This document shows, in pieces, positions 46,392 through 56,858 of a stretch of 56,858 nt of DNA. Numbering within the stretch: the first letter of the stretch is position 1; each line of letters starts with the position of its first letter. Origin of the DNA: an uncultured Lachnospiraceae bacterium (GTDB lineage Bacteria; Bacillota; Clostridia; Lachnospirales; Lachnospiraceae). The notes under the pieces are model-generated. The model was not told the origin of the DNA and made no database searches. It was given only the letters and a program-made list of their open reading frames with translations. The position numbers were made by a program, and so were the translations under genes. The stretch is taken from positions 1 to 56,858 of the forward strand of contig ONHG01000018.1 in NCBI GenBank assembly GCA_900317585.1, in the 5' to 3' direction.

Positions 46392-47261
46392 ATGTCATTT
46401 TCCAGTGATGTAAAGGAAGAGCTGGCAAAGCAGGTATCAAAGAGCAGGCACTGTCAGCTCGCTGAGCTTGCAGGCATTATAGAGCTTTCGGGCCGTATCA
46501 ATGAAAAAACAAAGGGACTTGAGCTCGACACCGAAAACCTGCTGCTTTTAAATAAATATGCCACACTTATGAAGCGTGCCTTTGGCACAGATACCACAAA
46601 GGCGCTGGATGAGCAGGATACCGGAAAAATACTTGCAGCGCTTAAAATCACGGCACAGCCTGTCAACAGACAGAACGCAGACGGACTGCTTCTTATGCAG
46701 ACATGCTGCAAGAGAGCCTTTATCAGGGGAGCCTTCATGGCAGCAGGCTCGATAAGCGACCCCAACAAAGCGTACCATTTTGAGATAGTGTGTCATACGA
46801 AAGAGCAGGCAAAGCAGCTTCAGGAGCTCTTGTGCGGCTTTGATACGGATGCCAAGATAGTAGAGCGCAAGGGGCACTATGTAGTGTACATAAAGGAGGG
46901 CGCCCACATCGTGGACAGTCTCAACATCATGGAGGCGTATGTGTCACTCATGAAGCTGGAAAATGTGCGCATATTAAAGGAAATGCGCAACAGTGTAAAC
47001 CGTAAAGTAAACTGCGAAACCGCAAACATCAGCAAGACTGTGAATGCGGCTGTAAAGCAGATAGAGGATATCAGACTGATACAGAAAATGAGAGGACTCG
47101 ATGATTTACCGGCGCAGCTTCGGGAGATGGCGCTGCTTCGGCTTGAATATCCGGATGCACCGCTAAAGGAGCTCGGAGGATATCTGGATCCGCCAATGGG
47201 CAAATCGGGAGTCAACCACAGGCTTAGAAAATTATCGGCGATTGCGGAGGAACTGAGATAG
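46392..47261 (+). CDS. whiA: DNA-binding protein WhiA
   Basis: 289 aa. LAGLIDADG-like N-terminal domain with AFIRGAFMAAGSISDPNKAYHFE and a C-terminal helix-turn-helix (EYPDAPLKELGGYLDPPMGKS followed by NHRLRKL). In Gram-positive bacteria it influences division, sporulation or nucleoid organisation. ATG at 46392 one base after rapZ; the following gene starts at the next base after its stop. Confidence 0.95.
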   Translation: MSFSSDVKEELAKQVSKSRHCQLAELAGIIELSGRINEKTKGLELDTENLLLLNKYATLMKRAFGTDTTKALDEQDTGKILAALKITAQPVNRQNADGLLLMQTCCKRAFIRGAFMAAGSISDPNKAYHFEIVCHTKEQAKQLQELLCGFDTDAKIVERKGHYVVYIKEGAHIVDSLNIMEAYVSLMKLENVRILKEMRNSVNRKVNCETANISKTVNAAVKQIEDIRLIQKMRGLDDLPAQLREMALLRLEYPDAPLKELGGYLDPPMGKSGVNHRLRKLSAIAEELR

Positions 47262-48146
47262 ATGAAGAAAAAGCTTTTATTTGTATTTAACCCCAAATCA
47301 GGCAAGGGACTCATAAAGGAGCACCTGGTAAATATCGTGGACATCATGACAAAGGCCGGATACAAAATCATCATTTATCCCACACAGTGTCAGGGGGATG
47401 CCATAAAAAAGGTCAGGAAAAATGCTAAGAAGTATGACCTTGTAGTGTGCAGCGGTGGAGACGGCACACTCGACGAGGTAGTGACCGGCATGGAGCAAAG
47501 CGAGGTAAATGTACCGATAGGATACATCCCTGCGGGCAGCACCAATGACTTTGCAAACTCTCTCGGCATACCAAAAAATATGGAGGAGGCCGCAAGAGTT
47601 GCCGTAAACGGTACTCCATTCCCGTGTGATGTGGGAGGCTTCAACGGAGATACCTTCGTATATGTCGCAGCCTTTGGCCTTTTTACAGAGGTATCCTACC
47701 AGACCTCGCAGCAGATGAAAAATATACTGGGACATGCCGCATATATTTTAGAGGGTGCAAAGCACCTGATGGATATCACCTCGTACACGATGAAGGTGAG
47801 CCATGACGGTGAGATAATAGAGGATGAGTTTATATTTGGAATGGTGACCAACTCCCTTTCGGTAGGAGGCTTCAAGGGCATATCAGGTCCTGACGTACTG
47901 CTTGATGACGGCCTTTTTGAGGTGACACTCATCAAGAATCCAAAAAACCCAATCGAGCTCAACAAGATACTTGCGGGACTGGCAAACCGTGAAAATGACA
48001 ATGAGCTCATCTACTCCTTCAAGACCAGTGAGCTGCATGTGGAGAGTGAGGAGGAGATACCGTGGACACTCGACGGAGAGTTTGGCGGCAGCCACACGGA
48101 TCTGACCATCACTAATCTGAACAAACAGATTACCATTATGTGCTGA
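47262..48146 (+). CDS. Diacylglycerol kinase family lipid kinase (YegS/DgkB type)
   Basis: 294 aa. Soluble lipid kinase of the DAGK catalytic family. FVFNPKSGKG at residues 8-17 and the nucleotide motif SGGDGTLDEVV at about 64-74 are diagnostic, with PAGSTNDFANSLGIP next. It phosphorylates diacylglycerol or a similar lipid to return it to phospholipid synthesis. ATG directly after the whiA stop, so strongly coupled. Last gene of the hprK-murB-rapZ-whiA cluster. Confidence 0.9.
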   Translation: MKKKLLFVFNPKSGKGLIKEHLVNIVDIMTKAGYKIIIYPTQCQGDAIKKVRKNAKKYDLVVCSGGDGTLDEVVTGMEQSEVNVPIGYIPAGSTNDFANSLGIPKNMEEAARVAVNGTPFPCDVGGFNGDTFVYVAAFGLFTEVSYQTSQQMKNILGHAAYILEGAKHLMDITSYTMKVSHDGEIIEDEFIFGMVTNSLSVGGFKGISGPDVLLDDGLFEVTLIKNPKNPIELNKILAGLANRENDNELIYSFKTSELHVESEEEIPWTLDGEFGGSHTDLTITNLNKQITIMC

Positions 48147-48277
48147 TAAATACAAAATCGGACATAAAATAGTAATAGTACACAATTTTTTGTCTGATTG
48201 TGTTAAAAATTTAACTTTATTTTTATAAGGTTATGTAATATAATAACATTAGCTTTTAATTAACAGGAGGAAAAAAT

Positions 48278-49144
48278 ATGTTAGTATCTGCAACAGAAAT
48301 GCTTAAGAAAGCAAAAGAAGGACATTACGCAGTAGGTCAGTTCAACATCAACAACCTTGAGTGGACAAAATCAGTACTTTTAACAGCAGAGGAGCTTAAG
48401 AGCCCTGTAATCCTTGGTGTATCTGAGGGTGCCGGAAAGTACATGACAGGCTTCGGTACAGTAGCAGCAATGGTTAAGGCTATGCATGACGAGCTCGGTA
48501 TCACAGTACCTGTAGCACTTCATCTTGATCACGGCACATACGAAGGATGCTACAAGTGCATCAAGGCCGGCTTCACATCAATCATGTTCGACGGATCTCA
48601 TTATCCAATCGATGAGAACGTTGAAAAGACAAAAGAGTTAGTAGCAGTTGCTCATGCAATGGGCATGTCTATCGAGGCTGAAGTTGGTTCAATCGGTGGC
48701 GAGGAAGACGGAGTTGTTGGAATGGGCGAGTGCGCAGATCCAGACGAGTGCAAGAGAGTTGCTGATCTTGGTGTAGATATGCTTGCAGCAGGAATCGGAA
48801 ACATCCACGGAAAATATCCTGCAAACTGGCAGGGACTCAGCTTTGAGACTCTTGACGCTATCCAGCAGAAGACTGGTGTTATGCCATTAGTACTTCACGG
48901 TGGTACAGGAATCCCAGCTGACATGATTAAGAAAGCAATCGACCTTGGAGTATCTAAGATCAACGTTAACACAGAGTGCCAGCTTTCATTCGCAGATGCA
49001 ACACGTAAATACATCGAGGCCGGAAAGGATCTTGAGGGCAAGGGATTTGACCCTCGTAAGCTTCTTGCTCCTGGTGCTGAGGCAATCAAGGCAACAGTTA
49101 AGGAGAAGATGGAGCTTTTCGGATCAGTTGGAAAGGCTGAATAA
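48278..49144 (+). CDS. fba: Class II fructose-1,6-bisphosphate aldolase
   Basis: Central glycolytic enzyme, zinc-dependent. 288 aa. ALHLDHGTYEGCYK and IMFDGSHYPIDENV carry the catalytic Asp and zinc His; EAEVGSIGGEEDGV, GNIHGKYP and LHGGTGIP complete the site. AGGAGG before the ATG. Upstream, TTAACT-17-TGTAAT (or the overlapping TATAAT at about 48237) is a candidate promoter. Codon use is strongly biased toward a few codons, as expected of a highly expressed gene. Followed by a clear terminator and then the accessory island. Confidence 0.96.
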   Translation: MLVSATEMLKKAKEGHYAVGQFNINNLEWTKSVLLTAEELKSPVILGVSEGAGKYMTGFGTVAAMVKAMHDELGITVPVALHLDHGTYEGCYKCIKAGFTSIMFDGSHYPIDENVEKTKELVAVAHAMGMSIEAEVGSIGGEEDGVVGMGECADPDECKRVADLGVDMLAAGIGNIHGKYPANWQGLSFETLDAIQQKTGVMPLVLHGGTGIPADMIKKAIDLGVSKINVNTECQLSFADATRKYIEAGKDLEGKGFDPRKLLAPGAEAIKATVKEKMELFGSVGKAE

Positions 49145-49244
49145 TATTGCCATAATTTAGTGTGTGGTGGTGCGACAAGCTCGCGGATATGCTCCCGGCT
49201 CGTCTCATAATTCCGCACACAAGTGGCTGTAAGAATTGTATATT

Positions 49245-49277
49245 AAAAAAGCCCTGGCATTCGTGCCGGGCTTTTTT
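49245..49277 (+). terminator. Terminator of fba
   Basis: AAAAAAGCCC-TGGC / GCCG-GGCTTTTTT with T tract. Its last bases overlap the left end of the direct repeat that bounds the accessory island. Confidence 0.92.
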
Positions 49278-49317
49278 GTCATAAAAATACAATTTACATT
49301 GAAAATCTTATTAAGCT

Positions 49318-49419
49318 ATGATAAAATTTAGAAATTTTATCGCAGTGGTAAGTTTCGGCTTAACCTGCTTTGGATTAGGGTATTCCTTTGGTAAGGATAA
49401 CAGTAAGACACAAAAATAG
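49318..49419 (+). pseudogene. Remnant of the small membrane-peptide gene (copy 1)
   Basis: 33 codons that end …FIAVVSFGLTCFGLGYSFGK and a short basic tail, matching 52255-52353. The true leader, ribosome site and start are deleted; a chance ATG (49318) from upstream sequence is now in frame with no ribosome site. The deletion joins two places that in the intact copy share the 9-mer ATTTTATCG, so it probably arose by slippage or recombination there. Confidence 0.7.
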
Positions 49420-49452
49420 TCGCCCCGACCTGCAAGTTGAGCGACTATTTTT
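49412..49452 (+). terminator. Terminator in cassette copy 1
   Basis: Perfect 12-bp stem AAAAATAGTCGC / GCGACTATTTTT. It differs in sequence from the corresponding hairpin of the right copy but has the same position, so the stem is conserved rather than the bases. Confidence 0.8.
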
Positions 49453-49507
49453 AGTTAATTGATTTAATGGGTCAACCGTCTATCGGTGGCACCCTTTTTG
49501 TATAATC

Positions 49508-49536
49508 AATATAACACGTATTGAGTGAAAATTCAA
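49508..49536 (-). promoter_or_regulatory. Antisense promoter in cassette copy 1
   Basis: Minus strand TTGAAT (49531-49536), 17 bp, TATATT (49508-49513), reading left into the decayed cassette. Identical to the antisense promoter of the intact copy, so an orphan antisense RNA may still be made here. Confidence 0.6.
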
Positions 49537-49663
49537 CTAAAAAATCACTTTTGGTAATAGGTGAGTCAATCTGATTTTTCCTTTGGAAGCCTTGGTGTTG
49601 AAATTGGGTTATAGACAAAAGGATACAATATGACATCTATGCAGTAAAAACATGTTTCGATAA

Positions 49664-49720
49664 AATCTAAAACCTAAATCTTTAGATTGAACTTTATTAC
49701 GAAAATCTCTATGGTATAAT
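49664..49720 (+). promoter_or_regulatory. Promoter and operator of island gene A
   Basis: Extended -10 element TGG-TATAAT (49712-49720) about 50 bp before the ATG, with TTTATT at 16 bp as a poor -35. An inverted repeat AATCTAAA / TTTAGATT (49664-49671 and 49681-49688) lies just upstream and would be a fitting operator. Confidence 0.5.
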
Positions 49721-49768
49721 ATGTCTATATTATGTAGGATTTTGCTATTGAAAAATAGGGGGATAGTA

Positions 49769-50677
49769 ATGTTACCAGTTTATTTAGAGGTTCCAAGGGA
49801 AGCAAAAAAAATAATTAACAAAAACGTTGGATATATGTTTGAACTTTTAAAATGTACATGTGAGGGATTGAGTTATGCTGATGTGCTAGATAGTATTTAT
49901 CTTTCTTATATTTTAGATATAAAACTTGAGAAGTGCGTACAAACGATAAAAGAACTGTATAATATGACACAGGATAACTATGAAAGAGAAGCACTGGCGC
50001 CATTTTATGAATGGACATTGTTTCATACTATTTTATGGTGGCTTGATGTAACAGATGAAAATGATTTAGATGAGATTCCAAGGAAGTATTGCACGGATAA
50101 GAGTGGTGAAGACAGATATGGTTATATAAATAATGTTAAAAATTACATTGAGTTTTTGTTTCAAGATTGGGATTTTTTGGATTTGGAAATTATTTATTCA
50201 ATATATAAGAATAACCCGGAGTTATTAGAAAGTTTTTTATACATAGATGTTGAAAATTATCTTGAACTTATGCCGAATGATATAGTAAAAGAATATCAAG
50301 CAATGAAAGAGAGGAGAAAAAGCAGTATGGATGGAAGAAGCAACATGACATTTAATATAACAGGAGGACAGATTAATATTGCAAAAGATAATGGAAATGT
50401 TAATGCAATACAGAATAATGGAACAAATACAAGTGAATTAGCTGATATAATAAAAGGAATTATGGAAAATGTACATGGTTTAGATAACGAGAATGCAGAT
50501 AAGATTAAAGATATAGTAGAATTGGCAAAAGATGAGCTAAATAAGCCAGAACCAAAGTCAAGCAGGTTAAGAAACTGTCTCACTTTGATTGCACCGATGC
50601 TTACAATTGCAAATGGTATCCCTGTCTTGAAGGAAAATTTGTTGAAGCTTAGTGATTTTATCATGAGATATGTTTAA
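49769..50677 (+). CDS. Island gene A: unknown 302-aa protein with Q-I-N-I-x-x-D-N-G motif
   Basis: I do not recognise the family. Residues 1-185 are helical and acidic with several Trp and Tyr (FYEWTLFHTILWWLDVTDEN, NYIEFLFQDWDFLDLEIIY). Then comes a short beta-type motif, FNITGGQINIAKDNGNVNA (196-213), then helices and a weakly hydrophobic C-terminus (LTLIAPMLTIANGIPVL, about 271-287). The same motif occurs in the next gene, so the two probably work together. Start: ATG 49769 with AGGGGG upstream. Clearly more AT-rich in codon use than the flanking housekeeping genes, suggesting transfer. Sits between two cassette copies. Defence is a guess from context. Confidence 0.6.
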   Translation: MLPVYLEVPREAKKIINKNVGYMFELLKCTCEGLSYADVLDSIYLSYILDIKLEKCVQTIKELYNMTQDNYEREALAPFYEWTLFHTILWWLDVTDENDLDEIPRKYCTDKSGEDRYGYINNVKNYIEFLFQDWDFLDLEIIYSIYKNNPELLESFLYIDVENYLELMPNDIVKEYQAMKERRKSSMDGRSNMTFNITGGQINIAKDNGNVNAIQNNGTNTSELADIIKGIMENVHGLDNENADKIKDIVELAKDELNKPEPKSSRLRNCLTLIAPMLTIANGIPVLKENLLKLSDFIMRYV

Positions 50678-50790
50678 ATAGAGAGTATGGAAAAATATAC
50701 AAAGCCAAAGATAAAATTAAAGTTTCGAGCATAGTTGAATATTGTCACTGATTAGTGAAGTGTAAGAAGATGAGATAGTAGAGGTACTAT

Positions 50791-51858
50791 ATGCGGAAAG
50801 ACAGTGAATTGTTGTTAAGGAAAGCATTGCAATATAAAGACAGGACAGGAGAAAATTCGTTTGAACTAGATTTGTCATATTTCTCAGAAATTCCAAATGT
50901 TGAAGTGGAAATAGAAGATATTTTTGAGGAATTAAAAAGTGAGCAATGTATATCAAAAAAAAGTACAATTTTTAAAAATACAATAAAAATATATCTTACC
51001 TTAAATGGTATTACATATTTTGATAATAAAGACAAAGAAAAAAAGCAAGATGGTATTATATATAATTTTAATGGAGAACAAATAAATATTGTAACAGATA
51101 ATGGAAAGATAACGGCTAAGCAATTTTATAGTAAAATGGATGCGCCAAAAAGAAAAGCGCTCAAAACAGATATGCCGAAAACAATTATAGTTGAAGAAAA
51201 CAAACACCAAGCTACAACTAAATCGAGTAAATCAGGGGATGAAATTCTTTGGATTGGCATAGGCATAGCAGTATTAGTCATTACATTTTATTATACTAAA
51301 TATCGGCATCAAGTACAATGTGGGCTGATTGCAGCTTCAATAGTAACAGAAATAGTAACGTGTTTAGTGTATTATTATAGTAAGAAAGTTAAGGTGTTTT
51401 ATGGTAAAAACATAAAAGGAATATTATATTTTAATATAATTTCAATTTTAGGGGTTCCACTATTAATATGGTTTATTAATAGTTCATGGTATACTTCTAA
51501 GATAAAATTTGATTTATTTATGCAAATGGCTGATAATAATGGGATATTGAGTGCATTTTCACACTCTGAATATGGCTATTATGCGCTATTCCAAATGGCA
51601 GGAATGTTTTTTATTGCAATGTTTTTAGTGCATATAATTAGTTCGGATATTTATATTATTGCAGTAACTAATATTACAGCTGGAAGTAGTGGGATGTGGA
51701 TTTGGAATGGCTTATTTAGATTAACATACAAGAGAGGAAAAAGTTGGAAACAGCATTTTAAGGTTGGAATTCTATTTTTGATATTTAGTATATTGTTTGC
51801 AGCTGGTATTTTTCCTTGTGTAATAATCAAGCTGAGTAATGGTAATTTTGGTGTTTAA
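50791..51858 (+). CDS. Island gene B: unknown 355-aa protein, winged-helix-like domain, Q-I-N-I-x-x-D-N-G motif and about five membrane helices
   Basis: I do not recognise it. Residues 1-80 resemble a winged helix ending in IYLTLNGITYFDNK. Residues 90-111 hold IIYNFNGEQINIVTDNGKIT, matching the motif of gene A (identical at 11 of 23 positions by my alignment). The rest carries hydrophobic segments at about 152-168, 176-195, 211-229, 264-290 and 324-345. This is the shape of a sensor domain tied to a membrane effector. ATG with AGAGG upstream; 113 bp after gene A and no strong promoter of its own, so probably co-transcribed. AT-rich like gene A. Confidence 0.6.
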   Translation: MRKDSELLLRKALQYKDRTGENSFELDLSYFSEIPNVEVEIEDIFEELKSEQCISKKSTIFKNTIKIYLTLNGITYFDNKDKEKKQDGIIYNFNGEQINIVTDNGKITAKQFYSKMDAPKRKALKTDMPKTIIVEENKHQATTKSSKSGDEILWIGIGIAVLVITFYYTKYRHQVQCGLIAASIVTEIVTCLVYYYSKKVKVFYGKNIKGILYFNIISILGVPLLIWFINSSWYTSKIKFDLFMQMADNNGILSAFSHSEYGYYALFQMAGMFFIAMFLVHIISSDIYIIAVTNITAGSSGMWIWNGLFRLTYKRGKSWKQHFKVGILFLIFSILFAAGIFPCVIIKLSNGNFGV

Positions 51859-51897
51859 ATTATATTTTGAGAAAAATCTATTGATGATTAATAGACC

Positions 51898-51926
51898 TTG
51901 TCAATATGGTAGGAGCACGTTATAAT
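51898..51926 (+). promoter_or_regulatory. Promoter of the predicted structured RNA
   Basis: TTGTCA (51898-51903), exactly 17 bp, TATAAT (51921-51926): five of six and six of six to consensus. It lies in a non-coding gap with no gene start within 300 bp, so it most likely drives an RNA. Confidence 0.7.
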
Positions 51927-51932
51927 ACCCAT

Positions 51933-52070
51933 ACAAGGTCAAATTCTCCATATCCCAAGGCAATACCCTTTATCCTCAAGGGGCAAAAATCTTTAGCCTA
52001 GGGAATGAATAAAATAACGAGAAAATAAAAGACCTTGTAGAGCGGAAAAACCGTTCTATGAGGTCTTTTT
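51933..52070 (+). ncRNA. Predicted 138-nt structured small RNA
   Basis: From the expected start (7 nt after TATAAT) to the terminator end. The first eight bases ACAAGGTC (51933-51940) are perfectly complementary to GACCTTGT (52031-52038). Inside are TCCCAAGGC (51953) with GCCTAGGGA (51996), one mismatch, and CCCTT-TATCCTC-AAGGG (51966-51982). These stems nest. The outer 3' arm also forms part of the terminator stem, so two folds compete. No ORF. Role unknown; it follows the two island genes directly. No Rfam family is recognised from memory. Confidence 0.6.
52027..52070 (+). terminator. Strong terminator of the structured RNA
   Basis: AAAAGACCTTGTAGAGCGG paired with CCGTTCTATGAGGTCTTTTT around an A-rich loop. 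The following bases CTTTTGTCATAAAAA open the right direct repeat, just as the fba terminator opens the left one. Confidence 0.92.
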
Positions 52071-52090
52071 CTTTTGTCATAAAAATACAA

Positions 52091-52120
52091 TTTACATTGA
52101 AAATCTTATTAAGCTATGAT
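52091..52120 (+). promoter_or_regulatory. Promoter of the small peptide gene
   Basis: TTTACA (52091-52096), 18 bp, TATGAT (52115-52120). Transcription would start near 52127, just before the GGGTGCCACC hairpin. Confidence 0.55.
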
Positions 52121-52166
52121 AAAATTTTATCGGGTGCCACCATAACGGTAGGCGGTTGACCCTCTA

Positions 52167-52245
52167 CGGAGGGACTGTGACCCTCCGATTACATAGAAAC
52201 CCGCAAGGGAATCTGAAGAAGTCAATGATTTCTTGGAAAGGAGGG
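52167..52245 (+). promoter_or_regulatory. Leader with an anti-Shine-Dalgarno switch
   Basis: CGGAGGG (52167-52173) and CCCTCCG (52181-52187) form a perfect 7-bp hairpin. The ribosome site of the peptide gene is also GGAGGG (52240-52245), so CCCTCC can pair with either. Alternative folds could hide or expose the ribosome site, as in known type I toxin messages. Confidence 0.55.
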
Positions 52246-52254
52246 CTGAGCCAT

Positions 52255-52353
52255 ATGAGTATTGTAGATTTTATCGCAGTGGTAAGCTTTGGCTTAACCT
52301 GTTTTGGAATAGGGTATTCCCTTGGCAAAGATAACAACAACACACAGAAATAG
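52255..52353 (+). CDS. 32-aa single-helix membrane peptide, candidate type I toxin
   Basis: Begins MSIVDFIAVVSFGLTCF and ends with a polar basic tail …LGKDNNNTQK. One hydrophobic helix (about residues 3-22) and a charged C-terminus, as in Fst/TxpA-type toxins. AAAGGAGGG is the ribosome site, 9 nt from the ATG. An earlier in-frame ATG at 52156 would put 33 atypical residues in front and hide the helix. The gene sits in a leader-controlled, antisense-flanked cassette. Toxicity is inferred from architecture; it could instead be a small membrane regulator. Confidence 0.65.
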   Translation: MSIVDFIAVVSFGLTCFGIGYSLGKDNNNTQK

Positions 52354-52388
52354 CCGCCCATGTCCTGAGAAAACTGAGCGGCTTTTCT
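52348..52388 (+). terminator. Terminator of the small peptide gene
   Basis: AGCCGC (52352-52357) / GCGGCT (52378-52383) with flanking A and T runs; the right side reads GCGGCTTTTCT. It starts within the stop codon region of the peptide gene. Confidence 0.7.
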
Positions 52389-52438
52389 AAAGCTTAACAA
52401 TTATCGGGTCAACCGTCTATCGGTGGCACCCTTTTTGT
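52348..52438 (-). ncRNA. Predicted antisense (antitoxin) RNA
   Basis: Starts about 7 nt after the minus-strand promoter (52445-52473) and runs left through GGGTGCCACC…GGTTGACCC into the peptide gene's terminator hairpin, so it overlaps the 3' end of that message by about 40 nt. The end is not certain: the AGCCGC/GCGGCT stem is followed by only ATTTCTG on this strand. Convergent transcripts sharing a terminator are the arrangement of the Fst and TxpA/RatA loci. Confidence 0.5.
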
Positions 52439-52444
52439 ATAATC

Positions 52445-52473
52445 AATATAACACGTATTGAGTGAAAATTCAA
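52445..52473 (-). promoter_or_regulatory. Antisense promoter in cassette copy 2
   Basis: Minus strand TTGAAT (52468-52473), 17 bp, TATATT (52445-52450), identical to copy 1. Confidence 0.62.
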
Positions 52474-52535
52474 CTAAAAAATCACATTTAGCTTTTCACA
52501 ATAAGCTAGCAGATCATTATAGCTATAAATAGTCC

Positions 52536-52572
52536 AAAGGCAGATGTGGGACATTCCCACATCTGCCTTTTT
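52536..52572 (+). terminator. Intrinsic terminator between cassette and switch
   Basis: AAAGGCAGATGTGGGA / TCCCACATCTGCCTTTTT with a three-base loop, a near-perfect 16-bp stem. There is no gene directly upstream that needs it except the cassette, so it insulates the downstream locus. Confidence 0.9.
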
Positions 52573-52592
52573 CCGTATTTAAGCATAAAAAA

Positions 52593-52620
52593 TACCACAT
52601 AATAAACATTATGTGGTAAA
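52593..52620. repeat. Left inverted repeat of a candidate invertible segment
   Basis: 28 bp. Arms ACCACATAAT / ATTATGTGGT around core AAAC (52594-52617), with T before and AAA after. Exact reverse complement of 52791-52818. Confidence 0.92.
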
Positions 52621-52790
52621 TTTCTAATTCATCTATATTATTCTACCACTTTATTGCTAAAAAACAAGGAATTTAGTCATATAAAATTCTTTTTTGTCAA
52701 ATCATGACAAGAAAAATGTATCCATTTGATGATAATTATACAATTCAACAGTACTTTAGATACCTTATAAGACCAATAAATCCTCGTTTT
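52621..52790. other. 170-bp segment between inverted repeats, candidate phase switch
   Basis: AT-rich, no gene. On the minus strand there is TTGTTT (52662-52667), 16 bp, and TGG-TAGAAT (52640-52648), an extended -10; it points away from the helicase as sequenced, and would point toward it if the segment were inverted. A weaker + strand pair, TTCAAC-16-TATAAG, ends about 52770. TTGTCA-AATCA-TGACAA (about 52695) is an operator-like palindrome. Confidence 0.55.
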
Positions 52791-52818
52791 TTTACCACAT
52801 AATGTTTATTATGTGGTA
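52791..52818. repeat. Right inverted repeat of a candidate invertible segment
   Basis: 28 bp. Arms ACCACATAAT / ATTATGTGGT around core GTTT (52794-52817). Ends 22 bp before the chosen start of the helicase gene. Confidence 0.92.
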
Positions 52819-52840
52819 CCAGCAGGAAGGTCATGATGCC

Positions 52841-54970
52841 ATGAAATTAGAACTCTTTGAGCACAATCAAAAGGCATATGAAGCAGCCGTTTCTATGATG
52901 GCTGAGACCGGAAAGGCAGCTATTATACATCCTACCGGAACAGGCAAGTCGCTTATAGCGTTTAAGCTGGCGATGGAGCATCCGGACGCGAGTGTGTACT
53001 GGCTGGCGCCAAGCAGCTATATATATCATACGCAGCTTGAGAATCTACAGAAGATTATGAGGCCTGATTCATCAGATAAACAAATACAATCCCCGGACAA
53101 TATCACATTTATCTCATACAGCAAACTCATGCACAATGAGGAACTGATAGAGAAAATACAGCCGGACTACATCATACTCGATGAGTTTCACAGATGCGGC
53201 GCGGCAGAATGGGGAAAGAGCGTCAAAAAGCTGTTGGATGCTCATAAAACAGCAAAAATACTGGGACTGTCAGCCACCAACATACGCTATCTCGACAATC
53301 AGAGAGATATGGCAGAGGAAATATTCGACGGCTGCATAGCATCAGAGATGACACTGGGAGAGGCGATGGCGAAGGGTATACTTTCCACACCAAAGTACGT
53401 CATGGCGATGTACTCCTATGGTGAGGAGCTCAAGAAGCTAAAGCAGCGAATAAAGGCGATGGAAAGCAGAAGTAGCGTCAGACAGAATATGGAGCTGCTC
53501 GAACAACTGCGCCGTGCGCTGGAAAAAGCGGATGGACCTGACAAAATCTTTGAAAAGCATATGCGCGTGGAAGGAAAAATGCATGGTAAGTACATCGTAT
53601 TCTGCTCCAGCCGTGAGCACATGGATGAGATGACAGAGCATATGCACGAGTGGTTTGACAATGTGGATATGAGCCCGCACGTATATGTGGCATACTACAG
53701 CAACCCGGAGACCTCAAAGGCATTTGCACAATTTAAAGCAGATAAGAGTGAACATCTAAAGCTCTTGTACTGCATAGACATGCTGAACGAGGGCGTACAT
53801 GTGGATGACGTGGACGGAGTCATACTGCTTCGACCGACGGTGTCACCAATCATCTATATGCAGCAGATAGGCAGATGCCTCTCGGCAGGTACTAATAAGA
53901 CACCAATCATATTTGATCTGGTGGATAACTTCGAGAGCCTCTACAGCATCGACTGTCTGACAGAAGAGATAGACCAGGCATTCTCACTCATGCCATGTAC
54001 ACAGGTGGAGAGAGAAAAGTTTAAGGATAGATTCCGAATATACGACGAAGTGAAGGAATGCCGTCAGCTGTTCGGACAATTGCAGAGCAGTCTGTCATCA
54101 ACCTGGGACAACTACTATCTGGCAGCCTGCGCATACCACAGAGACCACGGCAACCTCAAGGTGCCAAAGGACTATGTGACAGACGATGGACTGACACTGG
54201 GAAGCTGGATACAGACCCAGCGCAAGGTGTACTCAGGCAAGATAGCCGGAGGACTCACCGCCGACAAGATAGAAAAGCTGAACCTGATAGGCATGATATG
54301 GAATGTCAGGAAAAACAGCTTTGATACAGCATATGAAGAGCTGGAAAAATATCATGAACAGCATGGAAATCTGGATATCAAGTCAAGATACGTCACAGAA
54401 AGCGGATATCCGCTGGGTAAATGGATTAACAACATCCGTGTGTCAGCCAAGAAAAAGGGCAAGGAAGCAGTACTCAACAAAGAACAGCTCAAAAAGCTCG
54501 AAGCACTTGGCATGATCTGGGACAAAAACAGCGAGATATGGGATGTCTATATCAATGCTGCAAAGAAATATTACGAAGAAACAGGTGATTTGCGCATACC
54601 GGTAAGGTATGTCACCGAGGACGGTGTGGCACTCGGCAACTGGCTTTCATCCATCAAGAATGGAAAGAGCGGCAGGAAAATGAGAGCGGAAACACTGACC
54701 GATGAGCAGAAAGCACAACTCAAAAAGCTGGGTATCAATCTGGAAAACACCAATAATACGGTGTGGAACAGCAAGTATGAGCTGGCAAAGGAATACTACA
54801 CCGAGCACGGTAATCTCAATATCCCGGTGGCATATTGCGTGGATGGAGTGAAGCTGGGCAGGTGGATATCAAATATACGAAGTAAAAGAAAAAATCCAAA
54901 TTCATCAGGGATGATGCTGGACGAGAGCAGAATAGCAATGCTCGACAGCATTGGGATGGATTGGAAGTAA
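52841..54970 (+). CDS. DEAD/DEAH-type helicase with helicase-associated repeats
   Basis: 709-aa superfamily 2 helicase. Walker A PTGTGKS at 31-37, DEFH at 114-117, SAT at 144-146, and a motif VI-like QQIGRCLSAG in the second RecA domain. The C-terminal 280 residues carry about four helicase-associated (HA) repeats, each with Y…HGNL-x-(I/V)P-x-x-Y…G-x-x-LG-x-W. Function unknown; similar proteins occur beside surface-polysaccharide loci in Lachnospiraceae as far as I recall. ATG at 52841 with AGGAAGG 11 nt upstream; a start at 52802 inside the right repeat is possible. Confidence 0.82.
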   Translation: MKLELFEHNQKAYEAAVSMMAETGKAAIIHPTGTGKSLIAFKLAMEHPDASVYWLAPSSYIYHTQLENLQKIMRPDSSDKQIQSPDNITFISYSKLMHNEELIEKIQPDYIILDEFHRCGAAEWGKSVKKLLDAHKTAKILGLSATNIRYLDNQRDMAEEIFDGCIASEMTLGEAMAKGILSTPKYVMAMYSYGEELKKLKQRIKAMESRSSVRQNMELLEQLRRALEKADGPDKIFEKHMRVEGKMHGKYIVFCSSREHMDEMTEHMHEWFDNVDMSPHVYVAYYSNPETSKAFAQFKADKSEHLKLLYCIDMLNEGVHVDDVDGVILLRPTVSPIIYMQQIGRCLSAGTNKTPIIFDLVDNFESLYSIDCLTEEIDQAFSLMPCTQVEREKFKDRFRIYDEVKECRQLFGQLQSSLSSTWDNYYLAACAYHRDHGNLKVPKDYVTDDGLTLGSWIQTQRKVYSGKIAGGLTADKIEKLNLIGMIWNVRKNSFDTAYEELEKYHEQHGNLDIKSRYVTESGYPLGKWINNIRVSAKKKGKEAVLNKEQLKKLEALGMIWDKNSEIWDVYINAAKKYYEETGDLRIPVRYVTEDGVALGNWLSSIKNGKSGRKMRAETLTDEQKAQLKKLGINLENTNNTVWNSKYELAKEYYTEHGNLNIPVAYCVDGVKLGRWISNIRSKRKNPNSSGMMLDESRIAMLDSIGMDWK

Positions 54971-54998
54971 GAATACAAGCTAAGGAGCTATAGAAATA

Positions 54999-56447
54999 AT
55001 GTACAGGAAGAAAGGAAGAGGGTGGACCAAGCATGTTGATTTCATGCTGTTGGACATCGTATGCATATTAATAGCATTTTTTGTTTCATATGTGATACGT
55101 TTTGGGTTCGATAATCCATACGTGGATAAGGATTACCGTACACTTGGAGTTGCCTTCCTTCTGATAGATTTCTTTGTAGAGATAATGGCAGACTCCTTCA
55201 AAAATGTCTTAAAACGAGGATATCTCGATGAGTTTATATCGGTCTGCAAGCATGCAATGCTGGTGTTTCTGGTCACAGCGCTGTTTCTGTTCACCACACA
55301 GATGGCAGATATATATTCCAGATTATCGTTTTACATCATGTTTCCAATATATGTGACCATCACATATATCTGCAGGCTGGCACTAAAGAGCTTTCTTAAA
55401 AAGAAAGATTTTACAGCATCGAAGAAGTCACTGCTTGTTATAGCACCTGAGGCACTGCTTCGGGATACACTGCGCACAGTGGAGAAAAGCTGTATGGGTT
55501 ACACACAGATAGTGGCAGCTTCGCTGGATTCAGACCTGAAGGGTAAAACAATATATAAAATTCCTGTCGTAGCAAATCATGATGGCATAGCAGATTATGC
55601 GTGTGATGAGTGGGTGGATGAGGTGCTCATACCGCCTTGCAGCGAGAAAGAATATCCGGACAAGCTGGCAGATATGTTCTTGGAAATGGGAATTGCTGTA
55701 CACACAGGAATTGCCAAAAATGGAACAGACCAGGGCGGTTATAAGCAGATAGAAAAGATAGGCGACTACACAGTGGTTACATCTAGTGTCAACTATGCAA
55801 ACACCAGCGCTCTTCTGGTCAAGAGGGGCATGGATATAGTCGGAGGTCTGATAGGCTGTCTGTTTACACTTATTATTATGATATTCGTCGGACCAATGAT
55901 ATACATAGCATCGCCGGGTCCAATATTCTTCGCACAGGAAAGAGTGGGCAGGAACGGCAGAAAATTCAAGATGTATAAATTCCGCAGCATGTATATGGAT
56001 GCCGAGGAGAGAAAGAAAGAACTCATGGCGGAAAACAAAATAGGTGACGGAATGATGTTCAAGATGGACTTTGATCCGAGAATCATCGGAAACAAAGTGC
56101 TGCCAAACGGAAAGAAGAAAACCGGAATTGGACAGTTTATCAGGAAAACGAGCCTGGATGAATTTCCACAATTTTGGAATATTTTTAGAGGGGATATGAG
56201 CCTGGTAGGCACCAGACCACCGACACTCGATGAGTGGGAAAAGTATGAACCACACCACAGAGCCAGAATGTCATTCAGACCGGGACTGACCGGCCTATGG
56301 CAGGTGAGTGGCAGAAGTAATATCACGGACTTCGAGGAAGTGGTGAAGCTGGATACTAAATATATTAGTGAGTGGAGTGTTAAAAATGATTTGAAAATTA
56401 TTTTTAAGACTGCAGTAGGTGTATTAAAGAATGATGGAGCAGTGTAG
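54999..56447 (+). CDS. Polyprenyl-phosphate sugar transferase (WbaP/EpsE-like)
   Basis: 482-aa initiating phosphoglycosyltransferase that moves sugar-1-phosphate onto undecaprenyl phosphate, the first step of capsule or exopolysaccharide synthesis. About four N-terminal membrane helices (13-140), a CoA-binding-like Rossmann region (140-250), and the bacterial sugar-transferase domain from residue about 270 (KRGMDIVGGLIGCL, PGPIFFAQERVGRNGRKFKM, KTSLDEFPQFWNIFRGDMS, RPGLTGLWQVSGRS). ATG with AAGGAG 11 nt upstream. 28 bp after the helicase and 3 bp before the next gene. Confidence 0.93.
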   Translation: MYRKKGRGWTKHVDFMLLDIVCILIAFFVSYVIRFGFDNPYVDKDYRTLGVAFLLIDFFVEIMADSFKNVLKRGYLDEFISVCKHAMLVFLVTALFLFTTQMADIYSRLSFYIMFPIYVTITYICRLALKSFLKKKDFTASKKSLLVIAPEALLRDTLRTVEKSCMGYTQIVAASLDSDLKGKTIYKIPVVANHDGIADYACDEWVDEVLIPPCSEKEYPDKLADMFLEMGIAVHTGIAKNGTDQGGYKQIEKIGDYTVVTSSVNYANTSALLVKRGMDIVGGLIGCLFTLIIMIFVGPMIYIASPGPIFFAQERVGRNGRKFKMYKFRSMYMDAEERKKELMAENKIGDGMMFKMDFDPRIIGNKVLPNGKKKTGIGQFIRKTSLDEFPQFWNIFRGDMSLVGTRPPTLDEWEKYEPHHRARMSFRPGLTGLWQVSGRSNITDFEEVVKLDTKYISEWSVKNDLKIIFKTAVGVLKNDGAV

Positions 56448-56450
56448 TAA

Positions 56451-56858
56451 ATGAGAAGGAAAAATAATAAAGATAATATGAAAATATGTTTAGTAGGATC
56501 ATCTGGTGGACATTTAACACATCTTTATATGCTCAAACCATTCTGGAAGGACAAAGACAGATTTTGGGTAACATTTGATAAAGAGGATGCACGCAGCATT
56601 CTTGAAGGTGAAAAAATGTATCCGTGCTATTATCCGACAAACAGAAGTTTGAAGGCATTGATCAAAAATACAAAAATAGCCTGGAAGGTCTTAAGAAAAG
56701 AAAGACCGGATGTAATTATCTCAAGCGGTGCGGCTGTGGCTGTTCCATTTTTCTACTTGGGAAAAATATTCGGAGCTAAACTGGTTTATATAGAAGTGTT
56801 TGACCGTATAGATAAACCAACAATGACTGGAAAAATGGTATATCCAATAGTTGATAAG
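56451..56858 (+). CDS. Alg14-like glycosyltransferase subunit (partial, runs off the right edge)
   Basis: 136 codons of the N-terminal part. MKICLVGSSGGHLTHLYML and RPDVIISSGAAVAVPFFYL are typical of the Alg14/PssD/CpsF membrane subunit that recruits a GT28 catalytic partner for the second sugar of a polysaccharide repeat. ATG at 56451 with GGAG upstream; an internal ATG (56478) lacks a good ribosome site. Directly follows the sugar-transferase gene in the same operon. Confidence 0.82.
   Translation, partial: MRRKNNKDNMKICLVGSSGGHLTHLYMLKPFWKDKDRFWVTFDKEDARSILEGEKMYPCYYPTNRSLKALIKNTKIAWKVLRKERPDVIISSGAAVAVPFFYLGKIFGAKLVYIEVFDRIDKPTMTGKMVYPIVDK

Follow-up and report, generated by a model that had tools for sequence, protein, structure and literature searches.

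Most of what is known about invertible promoters comes from Bacteroides and C. difficile. The polysaccharide operons of Bacteroides have an invertible promoter and an antiterminator as their first gene, and Mpi is a serine recombinase. In the fimS/FimB system of E. coli, a tyrosine recombinase, short inverted repeats, and an internal promoter turn a surface structure ON or OFF. Mpi has been described as the inversion enzyme of B. fragilis, and in C. difficile the tyrosine recombinase RecV is needed for several small invertible segments located before surface or regulatory genes (PMC5903667). The hCom2 study places UpxY next to invertons at Bacteroides polysaccharide loci and describes, in its passages on inverton group 139 and invertase group 35, a set of 33 invertons, 32 of them from Clostridia; nearly all the group 139 invertons have a nearby tyrosine recombinase of one group, and reads show orientation shifts of these invertons with the linked tyrosine recombinase (PMC11892184). 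One example, from Clostridium sp. D5, has 26-bp repeats separated by 231 bp from start to start, and another has 14-bp repeats as given (PMC11892184).

The window analyzed here is an entire contig (G000:C8, 56858 bases) of a draft genome of 2.57 Mb in 52 contigs with 86.6% completeness. Its features are listed in Table 1; the contig end falls inside the third gene of the helicase operon. The best explanation for the 226-bp segment, to which we give a probability of roughly 0.8 on the sequence evidence, is an invertible promoter (inverton) of the tyrosine recombinase type, located ahead of a helicase-led exopolysaccharide operon and flipped by a recombinase acting in trans. The enzyme would bind the 11-bp palindromic arms and exchange strands in the central core; this step needs the same core in both sites and would flip the segment. 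In one orientation, the internal promoter would drive the helicase-led operon; in the other, it would point left, and its transcript would end at the left site (a palindrome with an outward T-run), making the exopolysaccharide phase variable. Such a switch would resemble fimS/FimB in its recombinase type, its short inverted repeats, its internal promoter, and its ON/OFF control of a surface structure. It would also resemble the Bacteroides loci in having an invertible promoter before a polysaccharide operon that does not begin with a gene for a sugar enzyme, but the recombinase would be of the tyrosine type instead of the serine recombinase Mpi, and the first gene is a helicase with HA (helicase-associated) repeats instead of an antiterminator. 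RecV serves several switches (PMC5903667), whereas this genome has a single pair of window-type sites. By its description, group 139 is the nearest known set (PMC11892184), but we do not assign the window to it.

Table 1. Features of the predicted switch and the genes next to it (positions in the window)
Feature	Position	Strand	Basis
Probable terminator between upstream genes and switch, perfect 16-bp hairpin	52536-52570		Repeat search, folding
Left site with outward T-run (7 T of 8), terminator-like	52585-52618	-	Folding, T count
Predicted invertible segment, 226 bp, 170 bp between arms	52593-52818		Inverted repeat
Predicted left recombination site, TACCACATAAT-AAAC-ATTATGTGGTA; arm extends to 52620	52593-52618		Sequence, repeat search
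Candidate promoter, TTGTTT-16-TAGAAT, TG before -10	52640-52667	-	Consensus match only
Predicted right recombination site, TACCACATAAT-GTTT-ATTATGTGGTA; arm begins at 52791	52793-52818		Inverted relative to left site
Likely ribosome-binding site, AGGAAGG	52824-52830	+	Sequence
Target gene 1, SF2-type helicase (ResIII, Helicase_C) with four HA stretches; ATG at 52841	52841-54970	+	Pfam
Target gene 2, exopolysaccharide polyprenyl glycosylphosphotransferase (EPS_sugtrans)	54999-56447	+	Pfam; above NCBIfam cut-off
Target gene 3, Alg14-like, cut by contig end	56451-56858	+	Pfam

An earlier note on this DNA, made from the letters alone, had reported perfect 28-bp inverted repeats flanking 170 bp, and both arms are indeed 100% complementary over 28 nt. 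The note had also divided each repeat into a 10-bp palindrome around an asymmetric 4-bp core; the core stands, the right one (GTTT) being the exact reverse complement of the left one (AAAC), but the palindromic arms measure 11 bp rather than 10. The 28-bp repeat is not a chance product. The site pattern, allowing up to 3 mismatches, had no match in 100 dinucleotide shuffles of the window, and the longest perfect repeat at distances of 100 to 600 bp was 14 nt in 300 first-order Markov sequences of local composition. Within 3 mismatches, the whole draft genome contains only two sites, both in the window. The codirectional helicase starts 22 nt past the right site. PADLOC gave no whole-length match of this helicase to any described defense protein, and only partial matches to the helicase core, the best of them to PbeA (1.1e-23, residues 70-360). 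A 2.2-kb query around the switch matched no phage and three plasmid records, the latter in the helicase gene only, and the viral contigs contained no relative of the helicase and no match to the exact site pattern. Rfam produced two matches over positions 50000-56858, both under gathering scores.

Sites of the form TACCACATAAT-N4-ATTATGTGGTA with up to 2 mismatches are present in 33 of the 397 genomes of the family, the window's own included. A reversed control pattern had no matches in the same 397 genomes at this stringency, and one in each of G015 and G314 at 3 mismatches. Regions were retrieved from 26 of the 32 other genomes with sites, 40 regions in all, and pairs of sites located 60 to 800 bp apart were counted in them. 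The 4-nt cores are exactly reverse-complementary in 39/40 site pairs outside the window, with start-to-start spacings of 187 to 768 bp. Taking one pair per left site, 37 of 38 follow the rule, with 26 distinct cores, and within those 37 pairs mismatches affect 0/148 core positions and 103/814 arm positions. The core is, hence, the most variable part of the site between loci and its invariant part within a locus, a behavior that points to strand exchange by a site-specific recombinase, unlike that of operators or terminators. No mention of such a private core rule is found in the passages of PMC11892184 on group 139. The exception (L122:8051-8494, in G210) is a recombinase fragment flanked by identical, directly oriented sites, an arrangement that looks like a partly duplicated unit. 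The same genome (5.7 Mb, same family) has 34 sites within 3 mismatches, some with recurring cores (TGGT, GAGT), and a recombinase of the L078-type clade (see below) in all eight regions fetched. None of the five orthologous or duplicate inverton pairs from other genomes whose orientation could be judged was inverted, all being colinear; the pair comparisons from G210 and G012 are not counted among these five.

Many of the target genes elsewhere are surface related, like the targets of known phase switches. A Pfam scan of the target-side open reading frames (ORFs) identified DUF7601 (5), signal peptidase (4), the FctA pilus domain (2), SpaA (2), CpsB/CapC (2), a polysaccharide synthesis protein, and others. 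The scan covered 31 of the 33 picked ORFs (L112:10069 and L116:11066 were omitted), and the ORF caller favors long ORFs, so that some of the ORFs taken as targets or controls may not be real.

Of the 40 fetched regions, 37 have a tyrosine recombinase whose end is no more than 600 bp from a site (tblastn check included); in most of them the distance is about 50 bp or less, or the two overlap. Together with the matching cores in 39/40 pairs, this association bears out the earlier suggestion of an invertible promoter ahead of a polysaccharide locus. The window's sites have no recombinase nearby, unlike these relatives and unlike nearly all the invertons of group 139 with its invertase group 35. 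The observation that the window lacks a recombinase gene held up: a tblastn search of positions 47001-56858 with two recombinases found no relic (best E value of 5), and the 13 places where a recombinase domain is listed in this genome are all on other contigs. However, the window might not be the only case of action in trans, since L101 and L104, which have site pairs, are without a recombinase in the stretch fetched (about 10 kb to each side); none was found in that of L105 either.

To look for the enzyme, we compared the recombinases found near sites with a set of 12 from the window's genome (a 94-aa fragment was omitted from the 13 places). All 41 recombinase ORFs, which come from 36 fetched regions and two Oscillospiraceae-type helicase loci and include fragments, had their best match in L078 (285 aa, G000:C46:51608-52462), with a mean of 224 bits versus about 48 for the next one. 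The earlier note had proposed a search for a recombinase farther along the polysaccharide locus, where the contig ends; in the draft genome, a single recombinase of the fitting clade turned up, namely L078 on contig C46. Its neighbors, as read from the ORFs, are a putative glutamine synthetase and a putative ATPase-like gene, and there is no site beside it in this neighborhood. It scores higher with Xer-type profiles than with two DNA-invertase profiles, all of them below cut-offs. Its closest relative in the genus is a recombinase of G029 (54% identity), placed as its sister in a quick tree with an SH-aLRT of 97. In G029, the order is recombinase, a degenerate site pair (core CAAT / ATTG, read by eye), and a truncated homolog of the window's helicase; compared with this arrangement, the window has the switch and the helicase, with the enzyme presumably elsewhere. 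It seems likely that the window is an orphan copy and that L078 is its enzyme, acting in trans. The pairing of enzyme and site is loose, since a relative of L078 is present in 12/62 genomes of the genus and the site in only 4/62; arm position 4 is A in the nearest relatives of L078 with known sites and C in the window. Another recombinase may also be missing from the assembly, given that the genome is a draft with the completeness mentioned above.

The absence of an adjacent recombinase or relic, in contrast to 37/40 comparable regions, could also mean that the window contains a once-active switch whose recombinase gene was lost from the locus and whose segment no longer flips. The end branch of L078, 0.83 versus 0.34 for its G029 sister, would fit such a locked state, and so would the left-hand neighborhood, which looks rearranged, with two copies of a small-ORF module flanking the stretch from 49.3 to 52.5 kb. 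However, we consider this scenario unlikely: the window's two sites match over all 28 bp, whereas the arms of other pairs differ at 103/814 positions, an intact recombinase of the same clade is present in the genome, and the pairs of L101 and L104 likewise have no recombinase within about 10 kb on each side. Much less probable still is a pair of palindromic repressor-binding sites serving the helicase operon with no recombination involved. The palindromic form of both sites and the position of the right one directly before the start codon would fit this reading, but operators need neither a reverse-complementary, locus-specific core nor an adjoining tyrosine recombinase. A duplicated terminator and a small mobile element bounded by inverted repeats are equally improbable: the stretches holding the sites do fold as hairpins (-15.3 kcal/mol for the left and -16.9 for the right), and the left one has a T-run, but cores that match at 148/148 positions within pairs while the arms vary are not expected of them, and the presence of only two sites in the whole draft genome argues against a dispersed element. 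The core rule, the recombinase association, and the site count led us to reject these last candidates. The earlier note had itself named a duplicated terminator as what would overturn its reading; the contrast between cores and arms defeats this objection, although the left site is still a terminator-like hairpin.

Returning to the invertible promoter, its direction is the weaker part of the prediction. The earlier note had described an extended -10 promoter pointing away from the helicase. The element is there, with minus-strand hexamers at 52667-52662 and 52645-52640 that point away from the helicase as assembled, but the sequence does not support a confident direction: a simple score ties at 9 versus 9 with a plus-strand match (ATGACA-18-GATGAT), so that the direction is only suggestive. 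With the segment flipped, a transcript from the candidate promoter would have a leader of about 62 nt before the helicase ATG. Considering the hairpin and the T-run of the left site, it may serve to terminate the misdirected transcript in the OFF orientation. Across 34 inverton loci, T accounts on average for 5.2 of the 8 bases, read outwards, that lie beyond the recombinase-side site, and for 2.3 to 2.6 at the other three flanks. When the recombinase is placed on the left, the better-scoring promoter match is directed away from the target in 25 of these loci and towards it in 5, with ties in 4; most assemblies thus appear to be OFF. For the window as assembled, OFF is only a better guess and a weak call. 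The hairpin between the small-ORF module and the switch has a T-run on each strand and is a candidate bidirectional terminator.

Homologs of the helicase were gathered from genome contigs (14 loci), from the genus (8/62 genomes), and from the family (15/397 genomes), the last two counts including the window's genome. Inverted repeats were scored when the arms were at least 18 nt long and at least 90% identical, with 100 to 1600 bp between them and one arm ending no more than 200 bp from the start. Such repeats lie just upstream of the helicase in 13/26 loci of a first set, which includes the window that prompted the question (12/25 without it), and in 13/18 loci of a second set, several loci in these counts sharing a genome; the same scan was negative for all 109 other genes used as a control, which were drawn from the window and L026-L039 only. 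The arm threshold was initially at least 20 nt, at which 12/26 and 11/18 loci are positive, and it was lowered to 18 nt ahead of any look at the second set, with the control re-run. Loci with too short an upstream stretch or no N terminus were dropped (7/33 and 4/22).

The sites upstream of the helicases are dissimilar in their letters, being of the TACCACATAAT type, GTAATGAAGTA-like, TTTCGCAGAT-like, or one of a few others. In 11 loci, a recombinase of 327 to 392 aa that is closest to L075 of the window's own genome is located upstream of the helicase, and in 10 of them it lies between the repeats, the exception being L222, where no repeats were found. In L026 and L038, an L078-like recombinase is located upstream of the helicase, with no clear repeat found; at many further helicase loci, repeats are present but the 3 kb upstream contain no recombinase. 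Judging from these sequences, two recombinase clades appear to be involved in helicase-upstream switches, with the L075-like clade perhaps serving both the GTAATGAAGTA-like and the TTTCGCAGAT-like sites. In most cases, the helicase heads an exopolysaccharide operon: of the 21 loci whose sequence extends over 7.5 kb or more, 18 have a sugar transferase downstream within 8 kb on the same strand, which is absent in L214, L219, and L227. The window's genome has a second operon of this kind (L124, contig C19), whose helicase (50272-52329) is 60% identical to that of the window. Perfect 26-bp inverted repeats are located at -1997 and -45 around L075, and a sugar transferase follows the helicase; this locus was scored as negative in the repeat count because only 1500 bp upstream was taken in.

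Tentatively, and with somewhat less than even confidence, we propose that many exopolysaccharide operons of Lachnospiraceae-type bacteria are headed by an HA-repeat helicase under switch control and that inversion switches were acquired there at least twice. Two recombinase clades would be involved, L078-like enzymes encoded outside sites of the TACCACATAAT type, and L075-like enzymes, whose genes often lie within the segment and whose sites are TTTCGCAGAT-like, GTAATGAAGTA-like, or different again, and G000 would have two such operons with different inversion systems. The helicase may act like the Bacteroides UpxY, helping to decide the sugar coat. Searches of titles and abstracts in the open-licence literature found no paper linking HA-helicases with inversion switches and, among the matches listed, no description of such switches in Lachnospiraceae or Clostridia; the word "helicase" is absent from the main text of PMC11892184. 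The switch follows a familiar principle, but the literature searched has no description of its orphan layout, of cores private to each locus, or of such switches recurring ahead of a helicase-led exopolysaccharide operon.

The sequences suggest that bacteria may have repeatedly evolved random on/off control of helicase-led sugar-coat operons. If this is true, the combination of fixed palindromic arms and a locus-private 4-nt core would allow switches to be found and paired in draft genomes without reads, and a poorly understood helicase family would gain a context as the leader of switchable sugar-coat operons. Gaining unlike switches at a single gene again and again would be a sign that mixed populations are strongly selected for, which is likely to matter in escape from phages and in interaction with the host.

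The small-ORF module to the left of the switch is present in two copies (49274-49552 and 52072-52489) encoding peptides of 32 to 33 aa, with repeated stretches 87 to 100% identical between the copies. Its two small ORFs have no Pfam match, and we take the module to resemble a type I toxin-antitoxin pair. The copies flank two ORFs, the first of which (49721-50677) has C-terminal similarity to the PADLOC candidate defense family PDC-M14B (3.6e-20), and the second (50791-51858) shares with it a 53-nt repeat at 77% identity.
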